Position numbers and translations under genes: made by a program
The notes under the pieces: model-generated
Told to the model about the DNA's origin: nothing
The model's input: only the letters and a program-made list of their open reading frames with translations
The model's database searches: none
Source: an uncultured Gordonibacter sp.
Lineage (GTDB): Bacteria; Actinomycetota; Coriobacteriia; Coriobacteriales; Eggerthellaceae
Length of the DNA: 35,290 nt
Reading direction: 5' to 3'
Assembly (NCBI GenBank): GCA_904420575.1
Contig: CAJFVW010000162.1
Span: forward strand, 1-35,290
Shown here: piece by piece, positions 23,240 through 32,918 of the stretch
How positions within the stretch are numbered: the stretch's first letter is position 1
Layout: every line of letters starts with the position of its first letter

Positions 23240-23620
23240 GTGTTCGACGATCTGCACATAAACGAGAAGTCCGGCGTGCCTGTATGGGTGCAGATACGCA
23301 ACCATCTATTGTTCCTCATCAAATCGGAGCGTATAAAACCGGGCGACGTGTTGCCCACGGTGCGCGAACTTGCCGCTCGTCTCGGCGTCAACTACAACAC
23401 CGTGCACAAGGTGTATCAAGACTTGGAGGCCGACGGCCTCATCTGCTCCAGCCGAGGAAAGCGATCGTTCGTGGCCGATGTCGACAGCAAGAAACTGGAA
23501 CTCCCCGAATCACCGGTTGATCTGGTCATCGAGGAATTGGTTCGGGTGGCGCAAGAGGCCAGCATCGCGCCGCAGGACGTGCTTCTGCGTGTGGAAGCAC
23601 GCTTCGAGCAGATGGGATGA
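23240..23620 (+). CDS. Short GntR-family regulator (YtrA/YhcF type)
   Basis: 126 residues. Winged HTH at about residues 10-75 (VWVQIRNHLLFLIKSERIKP, then LPTVRELAARLGVNYNTVHK), followed by only ~45 residues, which matches the short YtrA subfamily rather than GntR proteins with large effector domains. The GTG start at 23240 has GGGAG about 8 nt upstream; in-frame sequence before it is non-homologous. The SPFH gene follows after 108 nt. An inverted repeat in its own promoter shares GTATCATA with the promoter of the heme/molybdopterin-fold operon at 25014, so this protein may control both. YtrA-type repressors often respond to envelope stress or ligands in Gram-positive bacteria. Confidence 0.88.
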   Translation: MFDDLHINEKSGVPVWVQIRNHLLFLIKSERIKPGDVLPTVRELAARLGVNYNTVHKVYQDLEADGLICSSRGKRSFVADVDSKKLELPESPVDLVIEELVRVAQEASIAPQDVLLRVEARFEQMG

Positions 23621-23728: not shown

Positions 23729-24658
23729 ATGGGCAAGGACAAGGGCAAATCCGAAGATGAAAAACTGAACGAAGAGCCGGAGATCACCGAGATCGATGAA
23801 GTCTTCGAAGATGCGGCGACCAGCCGTTTCGGCGCCGGGTTTCTGCGCTGGATCATCACGTTTGCGGTGGCGGCTGCATTCGCGGCCATTGCCTTCCTTA
23901 CGCAGCAGCCTGCATGGGGCATCGTAGGCGTGCTGGGCGCTGCCGTCCTCTTCAGCTGCATGCACGTGGTGCTCGAGTGGGAACGCACCGTGGTGCTGCG
24001 CTTCGGCAAGTTCAACCGCGTGGCAGGTCCCGGCCTCATCTTCATGATTCCTTTCGTGGAATATTCTGCAGCCACGGTTGACCTGCGCATGCGTTCCACC
24101 GCATTCAAGGCCGAGCACGTGCTCACAAGCGACCTGGTGCCTGTGGACGTAGATGCCGTGCTCTTCTGGATGGTATGGGACGCGGGCAAGGCGTGTTCGG
24201 AGATTCGCAACTACGAGCGCCTGGTGTACTGGGTGGCTCAGACCACGCTGCGCGACGTGATGGGCGGCGTCGGCATTGCCCAGATGGGCGTGAGGCGCAC
24301 GCAGATCGACAAAGAAGTGGCGAGCATTCTGGAACGCAAGACCAGCGAATGGGGCATTACCATCGTGTCGGTGGAAATACGCGACATAGAGATCCCCGCC
24401 GACCTGCAGGAAGCCCTTTCCGCCGAAGCGCGTGCCGAACGCGAGTACAATGCCCGCATCATTCTCGCCGAGGTGGAGAAGGAAGTCTCGGAAATGTTCG
24501 TGGATGCCGCACGCACGTACAAGAAGGAAGACGCCGCATTGCAGTTGCGAGCCATGAGCTTCGTGGCAGACAGCGTGAAGGAGAAGGGCGGTCTGGTAGT
24601 GGTTCCCAGCGCGCTGTCAGAAGCCTTCGAGGGATTGGAAAAGATCGCGAAAGGGTAG
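23729..24658 (+). CDS. SPFH/band-7 (slipin-like) membrane protein
   Basis: 309 residues. An acidic N-terminal stretch (~1-35) is followed by two hydrophobic segments (~40-58 and ~64-80) and the SPFH core beginning ERTVVLRFGKFNRVAGPGLI. Next come RTQIDKEVASILERKTSEWG and VSVEIRDIEIPADLQEALSA, typical of bacterial slipins, then a C-terminal helical region. Slipins form membrane-bound oligomers and organise membrane domains; they are often found with NfeD proteases, but no nfeD gene is seen here. GGAGAGG lies just before ATG 23729. It follows the GntR gene and may share its transcript. Confidence 0.92.
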   Translation: MGKDKGKSEDEKLNEEPEITEIDEVFEDAATSRFGAGFLRWIITFAVAAAFAAIAFLTQQPAWGIVGVLGAAVLFSCMHVVLEWERTVVLRFGKFNRVAGPGLIFMIPFVEYSAATVDLRMRSTAFKAEHVLTSDLVPVDVDAVLFWMVWDAGKACSEIRNYERLVYWVAQTTLRDVMGGVGIAQMGVRRTQIDKEVASILERKTSEWGITIVSVEIRDIEIPADLQEALSAEARAEREYNARIILAEVEKEVSEMFVDAARTYKKEDAALQLRAMSFVADSVKEKGGLVVVPSALSEAFEGLEKIAKG

Positions 24659-24926: not shown

Positions 24927-25013
24927 AGGGGCGGCACGTCCGCTCGATACCGAAGGAGGTGCGGAAAACGAGCCGTTTTTCGTATGCAGCAAAAGGTTGG
25001 GGAAAGGAGAGAC

Positions 25014-26606
25014 ATGGGATTCGCTAAGAACCGCAAAATGGTGATTTCCGTCGTGACGGTAGCGCTGGCCGCCGCCGCCCTGGCGGGCTGCGCGCAGAAC
25101 GCGGTGACGGAGGAGCCCGCAGATGAGAGCACCGTCGGCCAGGCTACGGTGAACTACCAATCGGAAGGACGCTACAAGGACAATGTGGCGGCGTTCCCCG
25201 ATGGCATTGACGCTGACCTGGGGACGAAGAACGCCGAGATCAACGCGCCTTTCAGCTACGTTGACCGCAACGGCTTCACCGTGCAGCCGGTGCCGAGCGA
25301 CGACATCGGGTGGAACATCAGCTACCTGAACGCCGACCAGCGCGGATGCACGTCGTGCCATACGTTGGAAGACGCGTTGATGATGCTGGACACGTACCAC
25401 GGCACCATCTTCATGGGATATCCCACCGAGCAGACGCTGTCCACGTGCGTGGCCTGCCACATTTGGGCGAACCCGCTGCGCGATTCCATCCACGCAACGC
25501 ATCTGGGCAACGAGCTGTTCGAGAACAAGAACGGCACTTGCGAGTCGTGCCACTACATCGACGAGAACGGCGACTTCAAGCGCTGGGATTACGAGAAGTA
25601 CAATCTGTACCAGGGCATCACCGATGTCGCGGCGAGCGATGCCGATCTGAGCGTGACCTACGATCAGGAAACGCTTACCTCGAACGACGACTTCTTCTAC
25701 AAGAGCATCAAGGAGTACGGCGACTTCGACGCGAGCGACTGGCGTACCGACGACAGCAACATGGATCCCGAACTGTACAACAACTGGGTGTTCTCCGTTG
25801 GCGGTGCCGTGGAGAATCCCCTCGAGATGACGCTGCCCGAACTGGTTGAAAAGTTCGGCACCGTGACCACCGTCATGAAGCAGCAGTGCACCATCAACGG
25901 AGCGGGCAATGCGGCCATCGCGCAGGTTGAGGTCACCGGCGTTCCCATGCAGGCGATCATCGACTACGTGAAGCCGCAAGGCGACGTGAACGCCGTGGAA
26001 TTCATGACCGAGGATCCGTATCCCAATGTGGGCAAAACGTACAACATCCCCTTCACGGCCATGACCGAGAACGATTCCCTCCTGGTCATCGAAATGAACG
26101 GCGAGACGCTGCCCAACACGCAGGGCTACCCGTGCTCGGTATGGACGGCGGGCGGTTCCGCTGCCGGCGGCATCTTCAAGGTGTGCACGGGCGTGAACTT
26201 CAACGTGGTGGACGAAGCCGACGCCGCTTCTGGCTATTTCATGGGAGGCTTCGAAGACGCGGGCCTTGATGGCGCGCCGGCCGACAAGCCCAACAGCGCC
26301 GTGCTGAACTACCCCTCTGGCGTGGTGCTTGAAGGCGTGGCTGGCACGGAAGTGCAGATCGAAGGCTTTGCCGACGCGTTCGACGAGCCTATCCAGAAGA
26401 TCGAATTCTCCTGGGATCACGGTCAGACGTGGACCACGCTGGAAACGCCGGACAACGACCCGCAGTACTGGACGTACTGGCGCATGGGCTTCACGCCTCC
26501 TTCGGAGGGCGCATACCTGCTTGACATTCGCACGACCAGCTTGCAGGCCGATGGCACGGAGCGCGTCAACGGCGTCAACACCCAGTTCCTGCTGAACGTG
26601 AAATAG
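25014..26606 (+). CDS. Triheme c-type lipoprotein with sulfite-oxidase-type molybdopterin fold
   Basis: 530 residues. A Sec lipoprotein signal ends in LAGC (C26). Three heme c motifs follow: CTSCH (112-116), CVACH (145-149), CESCH (176-180). From ~250 to 410 comes a domain resembling the SUOX Moco-binding domain (WVFSVGGAVENPLEMTLPEL, then a possible Mo-ligand Cys292 before NGAGN). From ~430 to 530 comes a Mo-co dimerisation-type Ig-like domain (IEFSWDHGQTWTTLETPDND, ending LLNVK). It would pass electrons between hemes and the C-terminal module outside the cell. ATG 25014 has AAAGGAG about 4-5 nt upstream. Oddity: Moco proteins are normally exported by Tat, but no twin Arg is present, so Moco binding is uncertain. 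It heads a gene set with the 26621, 27804 and 28537 genes. Confidence 0.87.
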   Translation: MGFAKNRKMVISVVTVALAAAALAGCAQNAVTEEPADESTVGQATVNYQSEGRYKDNVAAFPDGIDADLGTKNAEINAPFSYVDRNGFTVQPVPSDDIGWNISYLNADQRGCTSCHTLEDALMMLDTYHGTIFMGYPTEQTLSTCVACHIWANPLRDSIHATHLGNELFENKNGTCESCHYIDENGDFKRWDYEKYNLYQGITDVAASDADLSVTYDQETLTSNDDFFYKSIKEYGDFDASDWRTDDSNMDPELYNNWVFSVGGAVENPLEMTLPELVEKFGTVTTVMKQQCTINGAGNAAIAQVEVTGVPMQAIIDYVKPQGDVNAVEFMTEDPYPNVGKTYNIPFTAMTENDSLLVIEMNGETLPNTQGYPCSVWTAGGSAAGGIFKVCTGVNFNVVDEADAASGYFMGGFEDAGLDGAPADKPNSAVLNYPSGVVLEGVAGTEVQIEGFADAFDEPIQKIEFSWDHGQTWTTLETPDNDPQYWTYWRMGFTPPSEGAYLLDIRTTSLQADGTERVNGVNTQFLLNVK

Positions 26607-26620
26607 CGGAGGTGACATTC

Positions 26621-27412
26621 ATGGCTGACAAAAAACAACTTGCCGTAAGCGCAGTGGCTGCTACCTCTCTGTTGCTGGCCGGCGCGACCCCTGCCTTGGC
26701 GGCGACGAGCGAGTCTTCGGATGCTGCGCAGCTTGCAACCGAGAGCGCAGTGCAGTCGAACCAGAGCGCGGGCGCCTTCGTGAAGGCCGATGCGTCGGAG
26801 GGCCAATTCGCCTGGGATCAAACCACGATCACGCCGAACTCGGTCATCAAGGAAGTGTTCCGAGCGGCTACGAGCGCGCTATGCAACGCGACGAACGATC
26901 TGGCGGTCGACAACCCCTTGCAGTGGCGTCTGGCGGTTTCGGGAGACGTGGACAACGCCTTCACGGCGACGGTCGACGAACTGTCTCAGGAACAGGCCGT
27001 GCAGCAGACGATGACGTGCTCCTGTGGCGGCAACCCCTCTGACGGCAAGGCCATCATCACGGCCGAGGTCAAGGGCATTCCGGTGAACTATCTGGCAGGG
27101 CGAGCAGGTGCGCACAGCGACGCCAACACCATCACGTTCGTTTCGTCCGACGGCACGGAAGTGGCCATGCCGCTGGCCTATGTCATTGGCCATCACGGCG
27201 TGATTTCCTTCGAGATAAACGGAGAGGACCTGTCGGCGTCGGTCGGCGGCAACAACCAGCTGTGGCTGGCTGGTGCTCCGGCGAACTACTTCGTGCGCGA
27301 TATCGCCGAGATTCGCATCACTGCAGAAGACGTGGTTCCGGCGAACCCCGGCGAGGGCATGGAATATCCCAACAGTCCCAATGTCGGCTTGCTTTCGGCG
27401 GAGGCCGAGTAG
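26621..27412 (+). CDS. Secreted single-domain protein with sulfite-oxidase-type molybdopterin fold
   Basis: 263 residues. The Sec signal reads LAVSAVAATSLLLAGATPALA, with likely cleavage after A-L-A near residue 28 and no lipobox. The mature part is an Ala/Ser-rich stretch followed from ~100 by a SUOX-like domain: QWRLAVSGDVDNAFTATVDE, T-C-S-C-G-G-N (C133, C135), then NNQLWLAGAPANYFVRDIAE. C135-G-G-N resembles the C-A-G-N motif of the Mo-binding Cys. Unlike the upstream protein it has no hemes and lacks the C-terminal dimerisation domain; that domain may be supplied by the 27436 gene. GGAGG lies 8 nt before ATG 26621; a GTG at 26612 overlaps that site and is less likely. It is 14 nt after the preceding stop, so same operon. 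Probably an extracellular partner; catalysis unproven. Confidence 0.75.
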   Translation: MADKKQLAVSAVAATSLLLAGATPALAATSESSDAAQLATESAVQSNQSAGAFVKADASEGQFAWDQTTITPNSVIKEVFRAATSALCNATNDLAVDNPLQWRLAVSGDVDNAFTATVDELSQEQAVQQTMTCSCGGNPSDGKAIITAEVKGIPVNYLAGRAGAHSDANTITFVSSDGTEVAMPLAYVIGHHGVISFEINGEDLSASVGGNNQLWLAGAPANYFVRDIAEIRITAEDVVPANPGEGMEYPNSPNVGLLSAEAE

Positions 27413-27424
27413 GGCGGAACGTGT

Positions 27425-27468
27425 GCGGCCGTCGATCAGGCTTCCACGTGAAGTTCGGCGACGGCCGC
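27425..27468. terminator. Hairpin at the convergent junction
   Basis: Perfect 10-bp arms GCGGCCGTCG (27425-27434) and CGACGGCCGC (27459-27468) with a 24-nt loop, overlapping the 3' end of the minus-strand gene. It may end plus-strand transcription after the 26621 gene; no T tract. Confidence 0.4.
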
Positions 27469-27717
27469 AAGGGGGCTCGTCCGGCCGTCTTCCGTGACCG
27501 ACCGCACTTTCAGCTGGTAGATGCCTTCCTGCTGAGGTGTGTAGGCATAGGTCCAGTGGACCATGAGGTCGGGATCGGAGGCGCTCACGTCCTGGCGAGC
27601 CCAGGTGGTTCCGCCGTCAAGAGAGAACTCGAGGGCGACGATGTGGCTGCCGTAGTCGTCAGCGTATCCCTCGAAGGTTACCGGCTGGCCGACCTTTCCT
27701 TGGACAGGGGCGATCAT
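27436..27717 (-). CDS. Stand-alone Mo-co dimerisation-type (Ig-like) domain protein
   Basis: 93 residues, no signal peptide visible. The whole protein matches the C-terminal domain of the 25014 protein: VGQPVTFEGYADDYGSHIVA, then LEFSLDGGTTWARQDV, then GIYQLKVRSVTEDGRTSPL. This is the Ig-like dimerisation domain of sulfite oxidase family enzymes. ATG 27717 has AAAGGAG 5 nt upstream, an excellent site, which supports it being real despite its small size. It is convergent with the 26621 gene (23 nt between stops) and divergent from the ferredoxin gene (86 nt). The lack of a signal is puzzling if it pairs with a secreted partner; it could act in the cytoplasm or be a rearranged fragment. Confidence 0.75.
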   Translation of the reverse strand: MIAPVQGKVGQPVTFEGYADDYGSHIVALEFSLDGGTTWARQDVSASDPDLMVHWTYAYTPQQEGIYQLKVRSVTEDGRTSPLAAVAELHVEA

Positions 27718-27803: not shown

Positions 27804-28481
27804 ATGCGAGACGATACGGGCATCCCACGGCGCACTCTGCTGCAAGGGGCTGCCGTGTTGGGCGCGACGGCGCTCGCTGGAGGTGCGGTTGGCGCCACGC
27901 GCAAGGCCGCCTTCGCCGAAGACGGCAAAGCGGGCGCGGCGCCGCAGGATGCAGAGGCCGCAACCTCGCAGGGCGGCATGCAGTACGGGTTTCTGGTGCG
28001 CATGTCGAACTGCGTGAACTGCCAGCAATGCGTCGAGGCCTGCCGCAAGGCGAACGGCACGCCGGAGGACGTGCCTGCCCGCCGTGCAGTGACGCCGTAC
28101 ACGACGGCGAATGGCCAGAAGGTGTACGTTTCCACCTCGTGCATGCACTGCGAGGATCCCGCCTGCGCGACGGTGTGCCCTGCACGGGCCATCACGAAAG
28201 GCGAAGGCGGCGTGGTGACGGTGGACCACGACCGGTGCATCGGCTGCAAGTACTGCTATCAGGCATGTCCGTTCGGCGTGCCGCACTACACGTCTGCCGG
28301 CATGGACAAATGCGACCTGTGCCTCGAGGCTGGCGTTGCTCTGGGGGAGGCGCCCAACTGCGTGCAGGCGTGCAAGTTCCGTGCGCTGCACTTCGGCACG
28401 ATCGACGAGTTGGTAGCAGGGTCGGGCGGACGTGCCAAGAAGATAGAAGCATCGACCGGCCCCTCGTATGTGCTGCTATAG
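27804..28481 (+). CDS. Tat-exported four-cluster [4Fe-4S] ferredoxin (DmsB/NrfC type)
   Basis: 225 residues. A twin-arginine signal PRRTLLQGAAVLGATALAGG (R9-R10) places it outside the membrane. Sixteen cysteines form four [4Fe-4S] sites: 70/73/76/80, 113/116/121/125, 145/148/151/155 and 170/173/186/190, the full pattern of the electron-transfer subunits of NrfC, PhsB and DmsB type. It should shuttle electrons between the NrfD-like anchor encoded next (28537) and the heme/molybdopterin-fold proteins encoded upstream. GGAGAG lies about 3-4 nt before ATG 27804; the frame reaches 27753, but a signal peptide fits the later start. The extracytoplasmic location suits a respiratory chain that feeds or drains menaquinone. 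Confidence 0.92.
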   Translation: MRDDTGIPRRTLLQGAAVLGATALAGGAVGATRKAAFAEDGKAGAAPQDAEAATSQGGMQYGFLVRMSNCVNCQQCVEACRKANGTPEDVPARRAVTPYTTANGQKVYVSTSCMHCEDPACATVCPARAITKGEGGVVTVDHDRCIGCKYCYQACPFGVPHYTSAGMDKCDLCLEAGVALGEAPNCVQACKFRALHFGTIDELVAGSGGRAKKIEASTGPSYVLL

Positions 28482-28536
28482 GCGGGCGCGGATTGTGAAC
28501 GACTATGTGCCTGCAAGTCAGGTAAGGAGGTAATCG

Positions 28537-29508
28537 ATGGCCGAATTGCAATCGGTATGGGGTTGGCAACCGGCCCTGTACTTGTTCTTGGGAGGCATGG
28601 GCGCTGGCGCCTTCGTCGTGGCTGCGCTCTTGTACTTCCTCGACAGGCAAAGCAATCGCAAGACCATCTGCATCGCTTCATGGGCTGCAACGGCCTGCCT
28701 CGTCGCGGGCCTGCTTCTGCTGCTGTCCGAGCTGACGAACCCGTTGCGCGGCATGCTATTGTGGCAAAGCTTCAGCAACGGGACGTCGTGGATGACGTTC
28801 GGTGCGTGGGTGGTGTTCGCGGCGGTGATCGTGTTCGGCCTCATGGCCGTGCTGTCGACCGAGCAGTGGGTGAAGCCCGTTTCCAAGAAATGGAAGGGCT
28901 ATCCCAAGGCGAGGAATCGCATGCGCAGCGTGCTTGCCGTCGTGGGTATCGCCCTGGGCTTGTGCGTGGCCGTGTACACCGGCATTCTGCTCATGTCCGT
29001 TCCGGGCGTGCCGCTGTGGAACACGCTGCTTTTGCCCTGCCTGTTCACCGTTTCTGCACTGGACACGGGTGCAGCGTTGGTGGAGATCGTGGCGGTGGCG
29101 CCCAAGCGGGCGGTGCTTTCCAACAAGACGCATCGTCTGCTTGAAGCTTCGGTAATGGTTCTGGTGGTGCTGGAAGTGGTCGTGCTCGCCGCGTTTCTGG
29201 CGACCATGCAGGGGAGCGACCTGACCACGGCAACGGGTGCAACGGCGGCAGCTTCGGCTCGGCTGCTGGCCCAAGGCATGCTCGCGCCGTTCTTCTGGCT
29301 TCTGGTGGGGGCATGCGGCCTGGCGCTTCCTTTGGCCATGGCCATTGCAGGCATGGTGCTGCGCAAAAGGAGGAAAAGCGGGCGTACGGCCATGCTTGTG
29401 GGGGCGGCTGGCGCGCTGGTGGGAGGATGCGCCCTGCGTTTCCTCGTGCTCATGGCTGGTTTGCACGCCGATGTGGTGGCCCAGGCGGTTTCAAAGATAG
29501 TGTCTTAG
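28537..29508 (+). CDS. NrfD/PsrC-like membrane anchor (quinone-interacting)
   Basis: 323 residues with about eight hydrophobic segments. The N-terminus W-G-W-Q-P-A-L-Y-L-F-L-G-G-M-G-A-G-A-F is typical of NrfD/PsrC proteins, which exchange electrons between membrane menaquinone and a ferredoxin subunit. A conserved E/N region (LLSELTNPLRGMLLWQSFSN) near residue 65 is close to the quinone site in relatives. GGAGGT lies 7 nt before ATG 28537, and the gene starts 55 nt after the ferredoxin stop, so they form one operon. A strong terminator follows. The direction of electron flow cannot be told from sequence. Confidence 0.9.
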   Translation: MAELQSVWGWQPALYLFLGGMGAGAFVVAALLYFLDRQSNRKTICIASWAATACLVAGLLLLLSELTNPLRGMLLWQSFSNGTSWMTFGAWVVFAAVIVFGLMAVLSTEQWVKPVSKKWKGYPKARNRMRSVLAVVGIALGLCVAVYTGILLMSVPGVPLWNTLLLPCLFTVSALDTGAALVEIVAVAPKRAVLSNKTHRLLEASVMVLVVLEVVVLAAFLATMQGSDLTTATGATAAASARLLAQGMLAPFFWLLVGACGLALPLAMAIAGMVLRKRRKSGRTAMLVGAAGALVGGCALRFLVLMAGLHADVVAQAVSKIVS

Positions 29509-29546
29509 ACACCGGTCGCTTGACTTTGCCCCAAGGGCAGGCGATA

Positions 29547-29579
29547 CCATGGCGAGCGTTCGGAAGGCGCTCGCCATGG
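29547..29579 (+). terminator. Terminator of the ferredoxin/NrfD operon
   Basis: Perfect 12-bp arms CCATGGCGAGCG (29547-29558) and CGCTCGCCATGG (29568-29579), 9-nt loop, followed by GGCGTTTTCC. 39 nt after the NrfD stop. Confidence 0.75.
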
Positions 29580-29682
29580 CGGCGTTTTCCGGCAGGGTGG
29601 GACGTGTTGTGCTCGGCCGGACAAGGCTGCTGGTGCGGGGAGGGGCGCAAGGCGTCAGGGGCCGAGAGAAGGAGGACCTGTC

Positions 29683-30213
29683 ATGGAGGGACCTGCAACG
29701 TCTCGAAGGACGTTTCTGAAGGCGAGCGCGGCCTGTGGCATAGGAGCGCTGGGAGCCGGGTTCTTGGCGGGCTGCGGGGGCGGCGGGCAGCAGGCCGACT
29801 CCGGCGGTGCGACGGGCGCGGCCATGCTGGAGGACATCGCGTGGGACGGTGCGTTCGACGTGGTGGTCGTGGGGTTGGGGGCGGCGGGCGCATCGGCGGC
29901 CATCGCAGCGGCCGAAAGCGGCGCGAGCGTGCTTGTTGTCGACAAGGCCCCCGAAGGCAGCGAAGGTGGCAACAGCCGCTACAGCTCGCAGCTGTTCGCG
30001 TCTGCCACCAACAAGGACGAGGCACTTGCCTACGTAGGTGCGCTTGCGGGAGGCTACTACGTGCCCGCCGACGTGCTGGACGCCTACGCACAGGGTCTGT
30101 GCGACGTGCGTGACACGTTGGTGGCCTGGGGCTTGGACGAAGGCGAACTGTTGGACGTCACCGACGTGACCGAGGCCGACATAGACGCGCTGTCCGCGCA
30201 GGGAGGTGAGTAG
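29683..30213 (+). CDS. N-terminal part of a split Tat-exported flavoprotein reductase
   Basis: 176 residues. Tat signal SRRTFLKASAACGIGALG (R8-R9), lipobox LAGC (C31), then the FAD Rossmann segment FDVVVVGLGAAGASAAIAAA and the flavin-proximal E-G-G-N-S-R-Y-S-S-Q. It ends after DVTEADIDALSAQGGE, where family members normally continue into the middle of the FAD domain. The stop TAG (30211-30213) is followed one base later by the ATG of the next gene, which carries the rest of the flavoprotein. No start site could join the two frames: the downstream gene is in another frame. Either the two chains assemble into one enzyme or the gene is broken. Its own ribosome site (GGAGG about 7 nt before ATG 29683) looks functional. 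Confidence 0.82.
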   Translation: MEGPATSRRTFLKASAACGIGALGAGFLAGCGGGGQQADSGGATGAAMLEDIAWDGAFDVVVVGLGAAGASAAIAAAESGASVLVVDKAPEGSEGGNSRYSSQLFASATNKDEALAYVGALAGGYYVPADVLDAYAQGLCDVRDTLVAWGLDEGELLDVTDVTEADIDALSAQGGE

Positions 30214-30214
30214 C

Positions 30215-31858
30215 ATGTGCTTCAGGCCTTCCAATTCGGAAGCGAAGAGCGTGGTCGTATGTCCTAGCTGTGGCAAGACGACGCCTCTCGATTCCGAAAG
30301 ATGCGAGAAATGCGGCGCCAGCCTGGATGGGTCGGATGCTCCCGCCATCGCGCCGCCCCAAGCGCCCGCCATCGCGCCGTCCGCCATTCCGGGGCGTTAC
30401 AACCTGCCGCCGCTTTCCGTGTCGCATCCGGAACTGCCAGGCGCTTCCTCCATCCGCACGAACCTGGTGGGTTCGTCCATCAACGACGGGGCCTTGTGGC
30501 GCTTCCTGAAGAAGGGCGTGGTGGCGCGCAAGAGCCAGATAGACTGCTGGTACTCGTCGCCGGTGACGGCGCTCATCCAGGACCCCGTGACGAAGGCGGT
30601 CGTGGGCGTGGAGATCGAGCGCAACGGACAGAAGCTCAACATTGCCGCACGCAACGGCGTGGTGCTGGCGCTGGGTGGCTACGAGAACGATCCGAATGCG
30701 GCGCAACAGTTCCTCGACCAGCCGAAAACCCTTGTCACCGGCACACTGTACAACGAAGGCGACGGCATGCGCATGGCCCAGGCAGCCGGTGCGCGCCTGT
30801 GGCACACGAACGCATGGGAGAGCGGCGGCGTGGGCCTGGTTCCCGAGGCGGACCGCATGCGCAGTCTGGGAGCCGACATCGCGTTCTTCAGGGCAGGATC
30901 GGTGGTGCTGGTGGGCGGCGACGCGCGGCGCTACCTTGCAGAAGACGCCGAGCAGCGGGGCGGTCGGGTGAAGGTGGGCGGTTCGTGGGTGGTGCCCGCC
31001 CGCCCCGATGCGAACTTCTTCGTGTTCGACGAGGCCCAGCGTGCCGATATGGAAAACGGCGTGGCGCCGCGCCCCTTTCCCAACTGGAGCGTGGACCTGT
31101 CTGCGGAAGTGGAATCCGGCAAGGTGGCGCGTGCCGACGACGTGCCCGGCCTGGCTGCTGTGCTGGGGTTGGACGGAGAGGCCCTGCAGGCCACCATCGA
31201 CGCGTACAACGCCGCCGCTGCCTCCGGCTTCGACGCGCTGGGCCGCCAATCACAGAACATGCGCGCCTTCGGCAACGGCCCCTACTACGGCGTAGCCGTG
31301 TATCCGGCGGTGCTCGCCACGCAGGGTGGTCCGGAGCGAGCGGCGAATGCCCAGGTGATGGGCGCTTCTGGCGAACCCATCCCGCACTTGTACGCGGCGG
31401 GCGAATGTGGCAGCGTGACGGCGCGCAATGCGCAAAGCGGCGGGAACCTGGCGGAATGCATCGTGTTCGGAAAGATTGCCGGGGAGGAAGCGGCAACGGC
31501 GAAAGACGATGCGGTGGCGCTGCCCGAGGGCCTGACGCACGGGCCGGGCTCGGGCGACGTTTCCGTATACGACGAGGCTCCCGACGAGTCGGGCCTTTCA
31601 TCGGGGGAGGCCGTAGGCGTTGGGGAAGGTTTGGGCGGCCCCCTCTGGGTGAAGGTCGCCGCCACAGGCGGCGCGATAGACGCGGTGGAGGTCCTGCGCC
31701 ACACCGAGCATGCCGAAGTGGGCGCCCCTGCGCTGGACGAGCTGAGGGCGCGCATGGTCCAGGCTGGCACGCCGGACGTGGACGCGGTGGCCGGTGCCAC
31801 GGTCACCAGCATGGGCTTGAAGGAAGCCGTGCGCAACGCGCTGGGACATGGCGCGTAA
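30215..31858 (+). CDS. Zinc ribbon fused to the C-terminal part of a flavoprotein reductase, with FMN-binding domain
   Basis: 547 residues. Residues 1-34 form a zinc ribbon beginning M-C-F-R-P, with C16-P-S-C19 and C30-E-K-C33. Residues 35-60 are an Ala/Pro linker with the repeat APAIAPPQ/APAIAPSA. From ~61 (YNLPPLSVSHPELPGASS) the flavoprotein resumes where the 29683 product stops, through A-T-Q-G-G-P-E-R and Y-A-A-G-E-C-G-S-V-T. After residue ~430 comes an FMN-binding domain ending A-V-A-G-A-T-V-T-S, close to the covalent FMN motif (usual Ser before GAT replaced by Ala). GGGAGG lies 8 nt before ATG 30215. No signal peptide of its own, so it cannot be exported alone; it might ride with the N-terminal chain. 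Whether active or decaying is unclear. Confidence 0.82.
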   Translation: MCFRPSNSEAKSVVVCPSCGKTTPLDSERCEKCGASLDGSDAPAIAPPQAPAIAPSAIPGRYNLPPLSVSHPELPGASSIRTNLVGSSINDGALWRFLKKGVVARKSQIDCWYSSPVTALIQDPVTKAVVGVEIERNGQKLNIAARNGVVLALGGYENDPNAAQQFLDQPKTLVTGTLYNEGDGMRMAQAAGARLWHTNAWESGGVGLVPEADRMRSLGADIAFFRAGSVVLVGGDARRYLAEDAEQRGGRVKVGGSWVVPARPDANFFVFDEAQRADMENGVAPRPFPNWSVDLSAEVESGKVARADDVPGLAAVLGLDGEALQATIDAYNAAAASGFDALGRQSQNMRAFGNGPYYGVAVYPAVLATQGGPERAANAQVMGASGEPIPHLYAAGECGSVTARNAQSGGNLAECIVFGKIAGEEAATAKDDAVALPEGLTHGPGSGDVSVYDEAPDESGLSSGEAVGVGEGLGGPLWVKVAATGGAIDAVEVLRHTEHAEVGAPALDELRARMVQAGTPDVDAVAGATVTSMGLKEAVRNALGHGA

Positions 31859-31955: not shown

Positions 31956-32918
31956 ATGGAATGCATGAAGGCTGCCGCAGACGGAGGTAGCAGCGACAGC
32001 GGCGCAGACACGTTCGGCGCGGGCGCGGGTTTCCCGCTTGCCGGAGACGATCCATGCGATGCGGGCGTGGACCTGCAGGCCTCGCGTGCGGAAGGTCGCG
32101 CTGGTCACGGCGATCTCATGGGACGGCGCCAGTTCGTCGCGGGTGCAGCGCTTGCGGGTTTCGCTGTGGCGGGAAGCCTGGTCGCAACGGGGTGTTCTGC
32201 AGGGAAGGACGCCCAGCAAGCGTCTTCCGACCAACAACCCATCGACGGGGAGGGCGGCCCGGCCGCAGAGGGAGGCGCGGGAGGCGCAGGGGCGCCTGCC
32301 GTGCCTGGCGACGCTTCAGGCCACAAACCCCTTCCCGCGCCCGAGGCCGACCCGGAAAGCCCCTTCGGCGTGGACGCGAACGTCAACGTGGGCACCATCG
32401 ACCAGTGGCTTGGCCGCGAAGACGTGGCCTACCGCGACATGCGCCTGTTCTTCGACCCTGCCGACTACGCCTCCATCGGCGGTGACCCCAACCTGACGGC
32501 CACCGTGGAGGGCTTCAAGGTGGTGCCGTTTCCCTATTTGGCCACCCTGCCGCCCCTTCCCGTGGCGAACGCCTACGATGGGCAGACGGCATGGACGGTG
32601 GAATGGGCGGACGACGGCTCCATCGTGTCGGCCACGCCGAACTTCCGCGAGTCGGGGCCGCTTCTGGACGAGCTTTTCCCCAAGGACAAGGCCATCTTCC
32701 TGATGTGCGGGGCGGGCGGCTACGCGGGGCAGGCGAAGACGCTGCTCGTGCATTTGGGCTGGAATGCCGACAAGCTGTACAACATCGGCGGCTTCTGGAA
32801 CTACACGGGCGACCGCGCCGTGCAGCTCATTACCACGGACGCTTCAGGCCAGCCTCTCCATTGCATGTGGCGTGCCGACACGGCCCCTCTCGACTTCGCC
32901 TGGATGCACGCGCGCTGA
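31956..32918 (+). CDS. Tat-exported rhodanese-like lipoprotein
   Basis: 320 residues from this start. A Tat signal MGRRQFVAGAALAGFAVAGS with Cys in A-T-G-C lies ~57 residues in, which is an unusually long n-region. A later ATG at 32118 would give a normal signal but has no ribosome site, while ATG 31956 has AAAGGGGA 6 nt upstream. After a Gly/Pro/Ala-rich linker comes a rhodanese-type domain (~135-320) with C-G-A-G-G-Y-A-G as active-site loop and I-G-G-F-W-N-Y after it. Such proteins move sulfur or bind related ligands outside the cell. It follows the split flavoprotein by 97 nt and ends one base from the convergent LuxR gene. An ATG at 31848 overlapping the previous gene is less likely. Confidence 0.75.
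   Translation: MECMKAAADGGSSDSGADTFGAGAGFPLAGDDPCDAGVDLQASRAEGRAGHGDLMGRRQFVAGAALAGFAVAGSLVATGCSAGKDAQQASSDQQPIDGEGGPAAEGGAGGAGAPAVPGDASGHKPLPAPEADPESPFGVDANVNVGTIDQWLGREDVAYRDMRLFFDPADYASIGGDPNLTATVEGFKVVPFPYLATLPPLPVANAYDGQTAWTVEWADDGSIVSATPNFRESGPLLDELFPKDKAIFLMCGAGGYAGQAKTLLVHLGWNADKLYNIGGFWNYTGDRAVQLITTDASGQPLHCMWRADTAPLDFAWMHAR

Follow-up and report, generated by a model that had tools for sequence, protein, structure and literature searches.

In the SorA/sulfite oxidase (SO) family, an SO domain (PF00174) that carries the cysteine ligand of molybdenum is followed by a dimer domain (PF03404), and the molybdenum cofactor (Moco) is, as we assume from general knowledge of sulfite oxidase, anchored by a pocket histidine and arginine (H304 and R309 of SO). 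Sec-exported SO folds without Moco are already known: PruR, annotated as a molybdopterin oxidoreductase, has a Sec-type signal and an SO fold but no Moco (PMC13259868). The Sco3746-type polytopic Moco proteins of Actinobacteria have a conserved twin arginine before the last membrane helix (TMD5), and their reporter fusions were Tat-dependent (PMC5449189). A different fold, that of the Mo-bisPGD (DMSO reductase) family, is found in QrcB/ActB, the cofactor-less molybdoenzyme homolog that occurs in Qrc and alternative complex III together with a multiheme cytochrome and NrfC-like and NrfD-like subunits (PMC6303296). In the present study, we analyzed a locus of an uncultured Gordonibacter sp. in which two adjacent genes, A and B, encode a further variant of the Sec-exported SO fold, with three c-type heme motifs in the chain of A. 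Our literature search for A/B genes in Eggerthellaceae gave nothing specific. Probably, A and B are SO folds without Moco that now belong to a lipid-anchored triheme module for electron transfer, exported by Sec.

The window, that is, the whole stretch of 35,290 nucleotides that was analyzed, belongs to an Eggerthellaceae genome of 2.96 Mb (245 contigs, 86% complete). Gene A (25014..26606, plus strand) begins with an ATG at 25014, preceded by the Shine-Dalgarno sequence AAAGGAG, and runs to a stop codon at 26606, giving a protein of 530 amino acids. Its closest relatives found were from an uncultured metagenome-assembled genome (93% identity) and then from Raoultibacter timonensis (82%). The N-terminus is a Sec/SPII signal peptide, MGFAKNRKMVISVVTVALAAAALAGC (25014..25091), which extends to the lipobox LAGC (C26) and has no Tat twin arginine; a lipobox is present in nearly all A proteins with a sound start. 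Three heme motifs follow, namely CTSCH (residues 112-116, 25347..25361), CVACH (residues 145-149, 25446..25460), and CESCH (residues 176-180, 25539..25553), all on the plus strand. None of 20,000 shuffles of the A protein reached three CxxCH motifs, and apart from spacing variants the motifs are invariant across 52 A proteins, as are the candidate distal histidines His129, His160, and His163. One invariant candidate per motif is the pattern expected for bis-histidine electron-transfer hemes, and such ligation is predicted here. Behind the heme region lie the SO domain (residues about 255-400; PF00174, 3.4e-20) and a dimer-type C-terminal domain (residues about 420-530), for which the Mo-co_dimer match was weak. 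The A profile matched SorA (2blf) at 3.6e-30 over both the SO and the dimer domains. A shares with SorA the order of the domains and the ligand cysteine, and differs from the SorA/SO family in having three hemes in one chain.

Gene B (26621..27412, plus strand) encodes a protein of 263 amino acids with a plain Sec signal ending in ALA and an SO-fold domain (PF00174, 4.5e-16) without a dimer domain. The original prediction had described A as a lipoprotein with a Sec signal, three CxxCH motifs, and an SO fold, B as an SO fold with a plain Sec signal, and both as lacking twin arginines, and our results agree in each of these respects. It had also considered that a corrected start of A, at the ATG at 24984, might reveal a Tat signal. 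This candidate was rejected, because the in-frame "ERRD" located between the ATG at 24984 and that at 25014 is the Shine-Dalgarno sequence GAAAGGAGAGAC read in frame, and in the close homolog L050 an in-frame stop just upstream shuts the corresponding frame. The span originally assigned to the system, 25014-27717, does cover A and B; however, its end includes a third gene, C, on the minus strand (27436-27717), and the system itself runs on to NrfC, NrfD, and a flavoprotein (27804-31858).

To evaluate the Moco pocket, we compared 52 A and 45 B proteins with a reference set taken from other Actinomycetota (49 PF00174 proteins) and scored the pocket by alignment columns. The ligand cysteine, together with the histidine and the arginine of the HGxPxR motif, was present in 43 of the 49 reference proteins. 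The anchoring role that we assign to the last two residues rests on general knowledge and on the conservation measured here. The ligand cysteine was found in all A (52/52) and all B (45/45) proteins, where Cys292 of A (25887..25889, plus strand) and Cys135 of B align with the Mo-ligand cysteine of the genuine relatives, so that the original view of these residues as candidate Mo ligands in altered contexts was confirmed. The His/Arg pair, in contrast, is lost. Among the A proteins, histidine occurs in one and arginine in five, never together; in B, glutamine occupies the place of arginine in 45/45, and again the two residues do not occur together. A fully conserved Moco pocket, which together with proof of Tat dependence had been named as evidence against the original prediction, was therefore found in none of the 97 domains. 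In the window, the motif reads QGYPCS in A and VGGNNQ in B. Because SorA, a real enzyme, has asparagine at the place of the pocket histidine, only the loss of arginine is strongly diagnostic. The ligand cysteine, invariant despite the missing anchoring pair, appears odd in these alignments, as do Cys133 and Cys88 of B. Some observations count against the preferred reading: this cysteine and a pocket lysine present in 44/52 A proteins would be superfluous in plain scaffolds, five A genes retain the pocket arginine, and most A genes lack adjacent NrfC/D genes (see below). AlphaFold models made from three-row alignments had pLDDT values of 32 (A) and 30 (B).

The change of the pocket is accompanied by a change of the export signal. 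In the original prediction it was assumed that proteins of this family load Moco in the cytoplasm and leave by Tat. This holds in part. Of the 43 intact reference proteins, 27 have a twin arginine before a hydrophobic segment (three of them recognized by eye), and two are cytochrome b fusions; however, 14 have no hydrophobic N-terminus, so that many are cytoplasmic, and PruR shows that an SO fold free of Moco can leave by Sec (PMC13259868). Unlike SO molybdoenzymes, which are cytoplasmic or Tat-exported, A and B have, as judged by motif, Sec signals without a conserved twin arginine; the motif was seen in one A and one B protein, and the nearest relatives of each lack it. For some A and B genes the called start was wrong (for example, A in L057, L062, L083, and L084), and these were left out of the signal evidence. 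The Sco3746-type proteins come from the same phylum and likewise place an SO-family domain outside the membrane, but differ from A and B in the conserved twin arginine and the Tat dependence (PMC5449189). TatC was found in the genome of the window, and 20 of its Mo-bisPGD-family enzymes were classified on inspection as Tat-type (8) or cytoplasmic-looking (12). This single incomplete genome contains as many as 63 PF00384 (Mo-bisPGD family) matches, that is, very many molybdoenzyme homologs. Its search for ResB, a heme maturation protein, gave one weak partial match.

The pairing of A and B is conserved. From 48 contig stretches we obtained 52 A genes, 53 B genes, and 30 free copies of C. In 50 of the 52 loci, B directly follows A with a median gap of 13 nt; one exception is a contig end and the other has no B call. 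Relatives of A were found in 35 of 140 Eggerthellaceae genomes, with more than 120 matches in total and up to about 10 per genome. The genome of the window has 12 PF00174 matches at seven loci, mainly A-B sets. About 850 Actinomycetota genomes were covered in all, including a class-wide and a phylum-wide survey; among them, only Eggerthellaceae yielded full-length A with its heme domain, and the matches in the others were confined to the SO and dimer domains. A maximum-likelihood tree built from 93 SO domains groups A with B (92/94) and places all B in one clade (100/100) that is nested within A. Thus, B looks like a duplicated, heme-less A. One pair in the genome of the window (L009:6840-9287) is decayed, with an in-frame TAG right after the lipobox of A and a B of only 162 amino acids; either pseudogene formation or an error in sequencing could account for this.

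Gene C (27436..27717, minus strand) encodes a lone dimer-type (Ig-like) domain of 93 amino acids with a Shine-Dalgarno sequence (AAAGGAG) and no signal peptide. The position of C relative to the A-B pair varies: it may follow or precede the pair, or lie on the other strand, as in the window and in L048, L049, and L050. In nine cases C is fused to B. We considered whether B and C are joined by readthrough, and rejected this, since the frames differ in L011 and C is on the other strand in the window. It is odd that C has no leader, since the domain to which it is homologous is an exported one; C may act in the cytoplasm, as a regulator or an assembly factor, or may be exported by Tat together with a partner. 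Six Eggerthellaceae genomes also have a leaderless C-type domain joined to a domain of tyrosine-phosphatase type (PF13350; L071:7314-8348, L081:8667-9689, L084:820-1854, L175, L176, and L177).

SO folds with an altered Moco site are not limited to A and B. Single-domain SO lipoproteins of other Coriobacteriia (L159-L173) and of a few further Actinomycetota (L194-L196) have RGFPF(Q/M) instead of HGxPxR. Like A and B, those of L159-L173 have an SO domain with the cysteine present and the pocket histidine and arginine replaced, but unlike A they are single-domain, carry no heme, and belong to a separate clade (100/100 in the maximum-likelihood tree). The RGFPF(Q/M) proteins have mainly plain Sec lipoprotein signals, with a twin arginine near the start in 4/15, and are probably Moco-free SO folds as well. 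In L096 and L098 the Mo-ligand cysteine is replaced by threonine, histidine and arginine are present, and the N-terminal anchor has no twin arginine; these proteins represent a third departure from the intact SO proteins, and PruR (PMC13259868) represents a fourth. Taken together, Sec export of an SO fold whose Moco site is broken is a recurring outcome rather than an isolated case. As judged by motif, loss of the pocket coincides with a missing Tat signal in at least two separate clades, in addition to PruR in the literature.

The neighborhood of the pair suggests a role in electron transfer. Upstream of A on the same strand are genes for a GntR-type regulator (23240..23620; PF00392, 2.6e-15) and an SPFH/band-7 membrane protein (23729..24658; PF01145, 6.7e-36), and this pair also adjoins A in loci L048-L050, L071, and L084. 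Downstream, the plus strand encodes an NrfC/DmsB-like [4Fe-4S] protein with the Tat signal IPRRTLLQGAAV (27804..28481) and an NrfD-like quinol-reactive membrane protein (28537..29508; PF03916, 1.7e-35), which together form the kind of module by which electrons pass to or from quinol (PMC8076601, PMC6303296). The cluster (27804-29508) thus has the NrfC-like and NrfD-like genes that characterize Qrc and alternative complex III. Because A and B have the SO fold rather than the Mo-bisPGD fold, and the hemes of A are fused to the pseudo-enzyme, we regard A/B as a possible functional analogue of QrcB/ActB and not as a member of that group. Next on the plus strand is an FAD_binding_2 flavoprotein (29683-31858) split into two genes, as in four genomes; the N-terminal half (29683..30213) has the Tat signal SRRTFLKAS, and the leaderless C-terminal half (30215..31858) has a zinc ribbon at its start, FAD_binding_2 at positions 143-412, and FMN_bind. 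At the end of the gene run, 31956-32918 encodes a protein with a twin-arginine signal and a lipobox, without a Pfam match but rhodanese-like by eye (FLMCGAGGYAGQ).

We infer the absence of Moco from the loss of the His/Arg pair in 97 domains, the lack of a conserved Tat motif, the occurrence of half-domain B genes (see below), and the position of A and B in a clade apart from the genuine Moco proteins. With no need for cytoplasmic Moco loading, A and B could cross Sec unfolded. After export, A would gain its three c-type hemes outside. The two SO domains, one from each protein, would serve as a scaffold and docking pair in a putative A-B complex. Where NrfC and NrfD adjoin, as in the window, the likely path of electrons would be from menaquinol through NrfD and NrfC to the hemes of A and on to an extracellular acceptor, which in the window would probably be the flavoprotein encoded next. 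NrfC and/or NrfD genes lie downstream of A on the same strand in 12 of 52 A loci and are not adjacent in the other 40; thus, A-B may serve several partners.

An alternative possibility is that in A and B the former Mo-ligand cysteine (Cys292 of A and Cys88, Cys133, and Cys135 of B) forms a new redox site outside the cell, which would receive a metal, a pterin, or even Moco once Sec export is complete and would be fed by the three hemes. This would make them a new kind of extracellular reductase of gut Eggerthellaceae, a proposal that we consider doubtful. A narrower form, in which the former ligand cysteine is reused for another metal or for a redox disulfide in B, perhaps together with Cys292 of A, as a new heme-fed site, seems unlikely to us. 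The conservation of the cysteines among the 53 B proteins is indeed high (Cys133, 100%; Cys135, 98%; Cys88, 94%), and Cys292 is invariant in A. Furthermore, four short B genes (L009, L074, and two in L085) break off halfway through the SO domain with the Cys motif intact. Three of these, of about 160 amino acids (L074:7899-8381, L085:7927-8418, and L085:12142-12639), have all three conserved cysteines. Since the short genes retain exactly the Cys-bearing half of the domain, that half must matter. However, conserved cysteine pairs of exported proteins are frequently structural disulfides, and the models of A and B are too poor to give Cys-Cys distances.

The SO domains might instead bind a free pterin or a similar small ligand extracellularly, as PruR binds tetrahydromonapterin (PMC13259868), and gate or sense electron flow without Moco. 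The A profile does match PruR (7kos), although weakly (E 0.008). However, PruR has tryptophan where A and B have cysteine, is only about 170 amino acids long, has no heme, and acts with DcpA-type signalling partners, whereas no PruR-type partner (DcpA or a sensor kinase) was seen beside A/B among the genes examined, and both A and B differ in the residues that anchor the pterin. We therefore think this explanation quite improbable. That A and B are real molybdoenzymes receiving Moco after Sec export by an undescribed route, the other branch of the original prediction, is very improbable and found no support here: the invariant ligand cysteine, the richness of the host in Mo-enzyme homologs, and mammalian SO, which reportedly acquires Moco in the mitochondrial intermembrane space, speak for it, but the anchoring pair is gone in all 97 domains, B exists as half-domain genes, no Moco exporter or periplasmic inserter was noticed in the operon, and we know of none in bacteria.

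Under the preferred reading of A and B as Moco-free parts of an electron-transfer module, a redox-enzyme fold would have been repurposed along with a change of the export route, and because pocket loss and Tat loss occur together, comparison among relatives offers a test of how Moco loading and Tat are linked. Domain searches name A and B molybdopterin oxidoreductases; if they lack Moco, this label misleads models of gut metabolism. Furthermore, the module is expanded in a family of bacteria that are known to respire drugs and compounds of the diet, and thus may supply electrons to extracellular reductases of pharmacological interest.
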